64,000 bases of DNA from Nitrospirota bacterium (lineage in GTDB: Bacteria; Nitrospirota; Nitrospiria; Nitrospirales; NS-4). The position numbers and the translations under genes were made by a program. Location of the stretch: contig VBOG01000107.1 of the NCBI GenBank assembly GCA_005877815.1, positions 1-64,000 of the forward strand, in the 5' to 3' direction. Positions within the stretch are counted from its first letter, which is position 1. Each line of letters opens with the position of its first letter. The notes under the pieces were generated by a model. The model was given only the letters and a program-made list of their open reading frames with translations, did not search any database and had not been told where the DNA came from. Shown here one piece after another: positions 47,497-50,271 of the stretch.

Positions 47497-49146
47497 TTAG
47501 CAGGGTAGACCTTCTCGGGTCAAACAGCCCCATAGTCTCTCCTCGATGACCTTCATCAATGGATACAGGCTGTCGGGCCTGAGCGCGGACATTGGAAGAC
47601 CGCCCACCCTCGCGCTGAGCGTGGCCGCCTCATGCGGATCAAGGCGGTCCGCCTTATTGAGGACGAGCAGGCGCGGGATATGATGCAGTCCCAATTCGGT
47701 GAGGATTCTCTCCACCACCCGCATTTGGTGTTCGACCGTGGGGCTGCTGATATCAGCCACATGGAGCAGGAGATCGGCATCCTGGAGTTCTTCGAGCGTG
47801 GCACGAAACGCTTCCATCAGTTCGGAAGGCAGATTGCGGATGAATCCGACCGTGTCGGTGACGATCGCTTCCTGGTCCATGGGGAATCGCAGGCGGCGGC
47901 TGGCAGGATCCAAAGTGGCAAAGACCTGGTTCTCTACGAGAGTGTGGCTACTGGTCAGTACATTGAGGAGGGTCGATTTCCCGGCGTTCGTATAGCCCAC
48001 GATCGAAATGATCGGCACCTCGCGCCGCAGCCGTTTCGCACGTTGCTGAGCGCGATTCCTCGCCAATGCCTCAATCTGCCGCTCCAGATGTACGATCCGC
48101 TCTCTCACGCGCCGACGGTCCACCTCGAGTTTCGTCTCGCCCGGGCCCCGGCCTCCGATTCCGCCCGCGAGACGAGACAATGCCGTCCCGTGGCCGATCA
48201 GGCGAGGCAGAAGATATCGCAGCTGCGCGAGTTCCACTTGGAGTTTGCCGCCGCGGCTGTGCGCTCGACGGGCAAAGATGTCGAGAATGAGTTGCGTCCG
48301 ATCAATGACTTTCAGTTCCGTCACCGCTGCAATGGCCGTTGCCTGCGCCGGCGACAGGTCCTGATCGAATACCAGATAATCCACGCCGTGCTGCAGCGCT
48401 TTGATGACCACCTCCTTCAATTTTCCGCTCCCGAGCAAATACTTGGGATGGAGCGATTGGGGCCGCTGGACAACGGTCTCCAATACGGAGAGGCCTGCGG
48501 ACTGGGCCAGGTCCCGAAGCTCTTCGAGAGAGTCTTCCTGCTCCCCGCGGCTTTGTTTCGAAACACTGACTAAGATGGCTTGCTCAGGCTCGAATCCCAC
48601 CTGATAGGCTGGTCGCGCCCGCGCCAATTCTTCTTCAAGTGCGGAAAGGAATTGCCGGAAGTCCACCCGGCAATCCTGAAGGAGAACAGGATCCCAGATT
48701 TCATACGGCTTACCCGCGGCGTTGGGCGGCAGAATGTTGGCGGCATACAGATGACCAGGTTGTCCGTCGTCACGCACCCCTACCGCCGCAATCAGATCAA
48801 ACCTCAGCAAGGCGAGGTCGGTCAGGTCATCTTGGCTCAATGGCTCGTCACGGAGATGCGTGTGCACCATCCGGATGCCGCGAAGCGACCGGCGCCCCAG
48901 GCGATAGGCGGACAGATCCGGCAAGACGACTTCATGGTGGTCGCCGACGATCACGTCTTCGATCGCGCCATGGCGGTTGATGAGCACGGCAATCTGACGC
49001 CCGATCTCTCGCGACAAGACCGCACAGAAACGGGCCAACTCAGGGGACACCACGGCATCATCCGGAACTTTCCTGCGATAGACATGTTCAAGCCGCCGCA
49101 GCTGGTTTGGCTTGAGCCCCGTTAAATTGCCGTGCGCGGACGGAAT
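47497..49146 (-). CDS. hflX: GTPase HflX (start probably AUU at 49146; ORF-caller start GTG 49053)
   Basis: G-domain VGYTNAGKSTLLNVL and NKADRLD; conserved-looking HflX N-terminus in frame upstream of the called start, behind AGGAGG. Confidence 0.9.
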   Translation of the reverse strand: MPSAHGNLTGLKPNQLRRLEHVYRRKVPDDAVVSPELARFCAVLSREIGRQIAVLINRHGAIEDVIVGDHHEVVLPDLSAYRLGRRSLRGIRMVHTHLRDEPLSQDDLTDLALLRFDLIAAVGVRDDGQPGHLYAANILPPNAAGKPYEIWDPVLLQDCRVDFRQFLSALEEELARARPAYQVGFEPEQAILVSVSKQSRGEQEDSLEELRDLAQSAGLSVLETVVQRPQSLHPKYLLGSGKLKEVVIKALQHGVDYLVFDQDLSPAQATAIAAVTELKVIDRTQLILDIFARRAHSRGGKLQVELAQLRYLLPRLIGHGTALSRLAGGIGGRGPGETKLEVDRRRVRERIVHLERQIEALARNRAQQRAKRLRREVPIISIVGYTNAGKSTLLNVLTSSHTLVENQVFATLDPASRRLRFPMDQEAIVTDTVGFIRNLPSELMEAFRATLEELQDADLLLHVADISSPTVEHQMRVVERILTELGLHHIPRLLVLNKADRLDPHEAATLSARVGGLPMSALRPDSLYPLMKVIEERLWGCLTREGLPC

Positions 49147-49183
49147 GGCCGAATCCTCCTACAGTGCGTGTGACGATCGACTT

Positions 49184-50188
49184 TCATGCTTCCCCCAAGC
49201 TCCACCCCGGACGGGGCTCACAATCGAGACCGGCTGACTGGCCTGCGCGTGCCAACCGGGCCCCCGCGACAGCGATCATCGCAGCGTTATCGGTGCAATA
49301 ATGGAGAGAAGGGATGTGGACCTTCACCCCTGCCTGCGGGCCGCATAATTTAAACAGGCTCCTCAGCAGCGAATTGGCCGCCACACCTCCCGTAACCACG
49401 ACGTCACGGATGCCGGTGCGCTTTGCTGCTGCTAGTGTTTTCTCCACCAGCACGGTAACGATGGCCTTTTCAAATGCGGCGGCAACGTCCTCCAGGACCG
49501 GCGCCGCGCCAGCCGCTTTCAAGTCGCGCAGATGATACAAGAGAGAGGTCTTGAGCCCGCTGAAACTGAAATTGAGATCCTCCCGGCTGGGGTACGGACG
49601 GGGTAGTTTCACGCGATCGGAATTTCCGTGGCGTGCAAGCCGGTCGATGATAGGCCCCCCCGGATATGCCAGGCCGAGCATCTTCGCCGCCTTGTCGAAG
49701 GCTTCGCCGGCAGCATCGTCCAGCGTGCGGCCGAGCAACTCACACGATTCCCATGCCCGCACGGCATACAGATTGGTATGGCCTCCAGAAGCGATCAACG
49801 CGACAAATGGGGGCGTGACGGGGTCCGGGCAGAGCTGTGCGGCACTCATGTGACCATCCAAATGATTCACCGGCACCAGGGGGATCTTTCGGGCGTAGGC
49901 CACCGCTTTTCCATATGCAAGCCCGACAAGCAGTGCCCCCACAAGACCAGGGCCCGCAGTGACGGCGACCCCGGTCAGATCCTCTACTTCAATGCGAGCC
50001 CGCGACAATGCCTCTCGAACCACCTCATCGATCACTTCAATATGGCGGCGACCGGCAAGTTCAGGGACCACACCGCCATAGCGGGCATGGTCCGCCTGCG
50101 ACCGGACAATGTCCGACAGAACCACGCCCTCGTTGGATGCAACGGACGCGGCGGTTTCGTCGCAGCTGGTTTCTATTCCGAGAATCAT
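49184..50188 (-). CDS. tsaD: tRNA N6-adenosine threonylcarbamoyltransferase
   Basis: MILGIETSCDETAASVA; ALIASGGHTNLY; VTGGVAANSLLR. Confidence 0.96.
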   Translation of the reverse strand: MILGIETSCDETAASVASNEGVVLSDIVRSQADHARYGGVVPELAGRRHIEVIDEVVREALSRARIEVEDLTGVAVTAGPGLVGALLVGLAYGKAVAYARKIPLVPVNHLDGHMSAAQLCPDPVTPPFVALIASGGHTNLYAVRAWESCELLGRTLDDAAGEAFDKAAKMLGLAYPGGPIIDRLARHGNSDRVKLPRPYPSREDLNFSFSGLKTSLLYHLRDLKAAGAAPVLEDVAAAFEKAIVTVLVEKTLAAAKRTGIRDVVVTGGVAANSLLRSLFKLCGPQAGVKVHIPSLHYCTDNAAMIAVAGARLARAGQSAGLDCEPRPGWSLGEA

Positions 50189-50192
50189 GGGG

Positions 50193-50236
50193 CGGAAAAG
50201 AAAACGCCGGGATGCATACCTGCTCATCCCGGCGTT
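50193..50236 (-). terminator. Rho-independent terminator after clpC
   Basis: Minus strand: AACGCCGGGATG...CATCCCGGCGTT followed by TTCTTTTCC-type T-rich run; lies between clpC stop and tsaD start. Confidence 0.85.
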
Positions 50237-50271
50237 GCGCATGTTGGATCAGCTGCAAGAAGAACAGAGGC

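Follow-up and report, generated by a model that had tools for sequence, protein, structure and literature searches.

hflX and its start site

The window, i.e., the whole 64,000-nucleotide stretch of Nitrospirota DNA that was analysed, belongs to a draft assembly of 204 contigs and carries on its minus strand a long-form hflX gene (47497..49146; 549 residues counted from an ATT codon) whose product matches TIGR03156 with E = 2.3e-134. The gene upstream of it is tsaD (49184..50242, minus strand), the stop codon of which lies 37 nt before the ATT. At the start of hflX the minus strand reads ...TG TAG GAG GAT TCG GCC ATT CCG TCC GCG CAC GGC AAT TTA ACG GGG CTC AAG..., and direct reading confirmed the layout given in the initial annotation: the hflX frame is closed upstream by an in-frame TAG (49159..49161, minus strand), and a Shine-Dalgarno (SD) sequence AGGAGG (49155..49160, minus strand) is followed after 8 nt by ATT (49144..49146, minus strand). 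Between this TAG and the conserved hflX N-terminus there is no in-frame ATG, GTG or TTG, leaving ATT as the sole candidate start codon, as had also been proposed. The ATT aligns with the ATH (ATA, ATC or ATT) and ATG starts of relatives, and strong SD sequences precede AUH starts family-wide. The first in-frame ATG, GTG or TTG of the hflX frame is a GTG (49051..49053, minus strand), which had been called as the start of the canonical open reading frame. The same region contains a 21-codon open reading frame (49122-49187, minus strand), whose ATG overlaps the tsaD stop codon and which runs, in a different frame, to 22 nt beyond the hflX ATT.

Translation of the segment upstream of the called GTG

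Since GTG 49053 is the first canonical start codon of the frame, translation might begin there, with the segment upstream (peptide HGNLTGLKPNQLR...) remaining untranslated. In a family comparison of seven genomes (L001 and L009-L014), with differences summed over all pairs, the 27 codons from the H of HGNLTG to the called GTG differ 54, 18 and 216 times at codon positions 1, 2 and 3, respectively, corresponding to 210 synonymous versus 36 non-synonymous codon differences. This synonymous, third-position bias identifies the segment as coding sequence under purifying selection. In addition, the codon aligned to GTG 49053 is ATC in all six family relatives, so the GTG is not a conserved start, and no good SD sequence precedes it. 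A start at this codon would also cut into a folded N-terminal domain of the modelled protein. Initiation at the GTG is accordingly very improbable, and the earlier claim that the called start omits an in-frame N-terminal segment is upheld by both the synonymous divergence and the ATC codons of the relatives.

At the proposed start itself, ATT is present in six of the seven family members, and the ATG of the remaining one (L009) marks the position as a start. The single ATG, together with the draft status of the genome, might be taken to indicate that ATT is a sequencing or assembly error for a true ATG. The initial annotation had named this as the case that would overturn its proposal. Five other independently assembled family members also carry ATT, so the codon in the window can be attributed neither to misassembly nor to a change peculiar to this genome, and ATA, ATC or ATT occur in further relatives; the probability of such an error is negligible. 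Taken together, these comparisons indicate that translation of hflX in the window genome almost certainly begins at AUU (49146-49144), which is selected by the strong AGGAGG preceding it. AUU initiation, the central proposal of the initial annotation, is thus borne out by conservation within the family and, as described below, by conservation of ATH across phyla.

The extra N-terminal domain of long HflX

The protein encoded in the window contains the GTP-bdg_N, GTP-bdg_M and GTPase domains, all above curated cut-offs (Pfam and TIGR03156), and this canonical HflX core is encoded at 47533..48582 on the minus strand. Pfam recognises the protein only from about residue 202 onward, where GTP-bdg_N begins. 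The segment restored by the AUU start is therefore not the typical HflX N-terminus that it had been taken for, but the start of an extra N-terminal domain of about 190 residues (48568..49134, minus strand). No Pfam or PDB sequence family was matched by the first 190 residues. AlphaFold2 modelling based on 50 sequences gave a mean pLDDT of 88, with residues 1-10 ordered (mean pLDDT 93), and in this model a start at GTG 49053 would delete the first strand and helix of the domain.

The best fold matches in PDB were JAB1/MPN proteins, namely CSN5, PfJAMM1, AF2198 and RadC, with low TM-scores and a best E of 1.2e-3. Long HflX proteins share a conserved HTHLxxEPL[ST]xxD in this domain, represented in the window by HTHLRDEPLSQDD (48826..48864, minus strand); over 50 sequences, H94 is conserved in 46, H96 in 45, S/T103 in 43 and D106 in all 50. 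The resulting pattern, HxHx6[ST]xxD, resembles the JAMM metal site HxHx7SxxD, although its loop is one residue shorter. Based on the model and the motif, the N-terminal domain of long HflX is likely, though not proven, to be JAMM-like.

Distribution of AUH starts among long hflX genes

A scan of genome contigs and whole-genome searches by phylum yielded an hflX frame at 212 loci; the N-terminal domain is shared by 179 of them (168 unique). This sample of 168 covers Nitrospirota, Geobacter/Desulfobacter-type bacteria, Acidobacteriota and others outside Bacillota. Outside the close family, the candidate codon with the best SD sequence was taken as the start, and a few starts were assigned by eye. 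On this basis, the assigned starts are ATC in 59 genes, ATA in 41, ATT in 39, ATG in 14, GTG in 5, TTG in 3 and CTG in 3, with 4 unassigned, so that ATH accounts for 139 of the 164 assigned genes. Conservation of the codon in related hflX genes, which had been suggested as a check, is therefore found both in the close family and far beyond it. The start in Geobacter hflX, for example, is ATC.

The same pattern emerges at a fixed alignment column, 4 codons before a conserved [HY]G, where ATH is present in 102 of 168 genes (ATG in 6, GTG in 2, TTG in 1 and CTG in 2), whereas most of the columns that precede it show ATH at roughly 2-11%. An in-frame stop codon occurs within 20 codons upstream in 120 loci, and 88 of these lack any ATG, GTG or TTG after the stop; 87 of the 88 have ATH, and the remaining one has CTG after AGGAGG. 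In 5 loci the stop codon directly precedes ATH. The possibility that ATH is merely an ordinary conserved isoleucine codon was ruled out by such nearby in-frame stops and by the SD sequences. Start-codon use also departs mildly from isoleucine codon usage (ATA, 41 observed versus 29 expected; p = 0.004).

An additional search of the phylum holding the Hydrogenedentota records gave, among assignable loci, ATT in 13, ATC in 3, CTG in 6 and ATG in 1. CTG, a codon usually rejected as a start, appears to serve as the start of long hflX in some clades, where it follows a 4-7 nt SD match (L362, L363, L366, L367, L369 and L378; also L094, L219 and L233). The AUH trait is not universal, given that the long hflX of Fusobacterium, which provided the sole relatives from plasmid records, starts with ATG; about 13% of relatives start at ATG, GTG or TTG without obvious harm. 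Searches of viral and phage collections returned no relatives. In the short-form hflX of L155, L156 and L157 (frame TAG AAT AAG ACG AAT AAA CTC AAA GAA), neither ATG/GTG/TTG nor ATH occurs from the in-frame TAG up to the conserved EKAILVG, and these genes perhaps start at ACG or CTC.

Selection for a weak start codon after a strong SD sequence

On a tree of the 168 proteins, at least 41 start-codon changes occurred among ATA, ATC and ATT, compared with 7 changes that involve ATG and 11 that involve any of ATG, GTG or TTG. With an unconstrained third base, G would be expected about as often as A, C or T; its strong avoidance indicates that selection keeps a poor start codon. The mean SD match is 5.3 nt for ATH starts versus 2.0 nt for ATG, GTG, TTG and CTG starts (p = 7e-11, kinship not corrected) and 2.5 nt for internal isoleucine codons of the same genes, with matches of at least 4 nt and at least 5 nt before 94% and 76% of ATH starts, respectively. 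Among the 102 ATH codons of the fixed column, which were picked without regard to SD, the corresponding proportions are 99% and 82%, versus 29% and 8% for 5,811 internal isoleucine codons. As demonstrated by sequence comparison, then, the putative start of long-form hflX has been kept poor (AUU, AUC or AUA, and CUG in some clades) in several phyla; AUG is selected against, and a strong SD sequence compensates for the weak codon.

Codon strength would hardly matter if ribosomes reached the AUU by coupling to tsaD or to the short open reading frame at 49187-49122, and the closeness of the tsaD stop codon, as well as the position of the short frame across the hflX start, would suit such an arrangement. 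Nevertheless, tsaD lies upstream of hflX in only 10 of 168 relatives and ATH is kept all the same, none of the six family relatives has the ATG of the short frame within the 45 nt that precede the start, and a strong SD sequence would be needless. Coupling is thus improbable, and because upstream gene content varies, the AUH trait is not a consequence of one operon.

infC and obg in the same genomes

To our knowledge, very few genes start at AUH, the classic example being infC. In the genomes examined here, infC starts mostly with ATA, ATC or ATT, and the infC of the window's genome (G000:C38:4254-4754; L151) has an apparent ATC start after an SD sequence (GGAGAGGTGGGCA ATC GCA GAA CAG). By contrast, obg, which encodes another ribosome-associated GTPase, starts with ATG, GTG or TTG in 22 of 22 readable cases. 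AUH starts are therefore not used indiscriminately in these genomes, and hflX behaves like infC.

In raw counts, canonical starts are found in both hflX and infC in 6 cases, in hflX only in 9, in infC only in 5 and in neither in 63 (Fisher p = 0.004). A single clade, that of Thermodesulfatator and its relatives, accounts for this association, which is not significant after kinship correction, with no trend over 6 independent pairs. Both AUH starts are missing in a clade comprising Thermodesulfatator and relatives and the L166/L178/L183 group, where hflX starts with ATG and infC with GTG or ATG (infC loci L134, L137, L257, L272, L274 and L276; hflX loci L057, L044, L090, L183, L178 and L166). 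Comparative support for a specific IF3 link is thus limited to the use of AUH by both genes.

Proposed IF3-sensitive control and its significance

IF3 destabilises 30S complexes on non-canonical start codons, whereby infC is self-regulated, and sigR of Streptomyces is repressed by IF3 in the same manner (PMC5472188). When 70S ribosomes are split by HflX, the 30S subunits set free are bound by IF3, which acts as an anti-association factor (PMC9067457). On these grounds, a mechanism can be envisaged in which initiator tRNA would pair imperfectly with the third base of AUH and IF3 would destabilise the 30S complexes formed on the hflX start, so that HflX output would be low and would increase under a shortage of IF3 relative to 30S subunits or under reduced initiation fidelity. 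The likely importance of such a throttle lies in the ribosome-splitting activity of HflX, which would be costly in excess, and in the binding by IF3 of the 30S subunits that splitting releases. IF3-sensitive control of hflX, which the initial annotation had raised as a possible regulatory link, appears to be the best mechanism on present evidence, although it is favoured only slightly.

A plausible alternative, against which the odds lie to some extent, is that AUH is the true start but acts as a fixed low-output brake, its IF3 sensitivity being incidental and without regulatory use. In S. aureus, the output of reporters with non-canonical starts was about 10-30% of that with AUG (PMC13009471). 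A fixed brake would also agree with the lack of phylogenetically independent co-variation between hflX and infC start types, and with the absence of a stable leader structure before the hflX ATT in the window (z = +1.0) that might point to another regulator. On the other hand, low output could equally be obtained with a weak SD sequence, whereas here the weakness is confined to the codon and follows a strong SD sequence, as for infC in these genomes. IF3-sensitive control could be extended to a more tentative, indeed somewhat doubtful, scheme in which HflX and IF3 would form an old co-regulated ribosome-splitting module, with IF3 repressing both infC and hflX via their AUH starts; if this is true, an excess of 30S subunits over IF3 would cause the splitting factor and the subunit-separating factor to rise together. 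The explanation as a whole, comprising an AUU start, a selected weak codon with a strong SD sequence and an IF3-linked throttle, is assigned a probability of roughly 80%.

The real finding is the conservation of a predicted non-AUG start of hflX over several phyla; from this pattern, it would appear that HflX synthesis has been held down at the initiation codon in the course of evolution. The presence of AUH over several phyla in a second translation-related gene would make weak start codons a lasting regulatory device, and an AUH-initiated hflX would tie a ribosome-splitting factor to initiation fidelity. From a practical perspective, gene callers that accept only ATG, GTG and TTG will annotate hflX too short in many genomes and remove part of the N-terminal domain.

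Comparison with known systems

The open-access literature searched, which is a part of the whole literature, contained no earlier description of hflX genes that start at AUH. The closest counterpart is infC of the same genomes, which has in common with hflX an AUH start after a strong SD sequence, conserved over phyla. Whereas the infC product, IF3, controls its own gene, hflX does not encode an initiation factor, and any effect of IF3 on hflX would represent control by another protein. In pcnB of E. coli, AUU limits expression, according to Binns and Masters 2002 as cited in PMC13009471 and PMC1780047; as far as these citing accounts go, pcnB resembles hflX in using AUU in a gene that does not encode IF3, its product being poly(A) polymerase. 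The sigR gene of Streptomyces provides an example of a non-canonical start in a stress gene that is IF3-repressed and conserved in the genus, but it differs from hflX in that its start is GTC, is confined to one genus and has been shown by experiment (PMC5472188). In Staphylococcus, ccpN (AUA) and cvfC1 (AUU) likewise start at conserved AUH codons, have extended SD sequences and show reduced output, although they were found by profiling within Bacillota and have other functions (PMC13009471). With regard to the protein itself, the HflX proteins of E. coli and mycobacteria share the GTPase core (TIGR03156) with that of the window, which possesses an additional domain of about 190 residues, predicted to be JAMM-like, compared with N-terminal extensions of 39-58 residues in mycobacterial HflX (PMC12493154).
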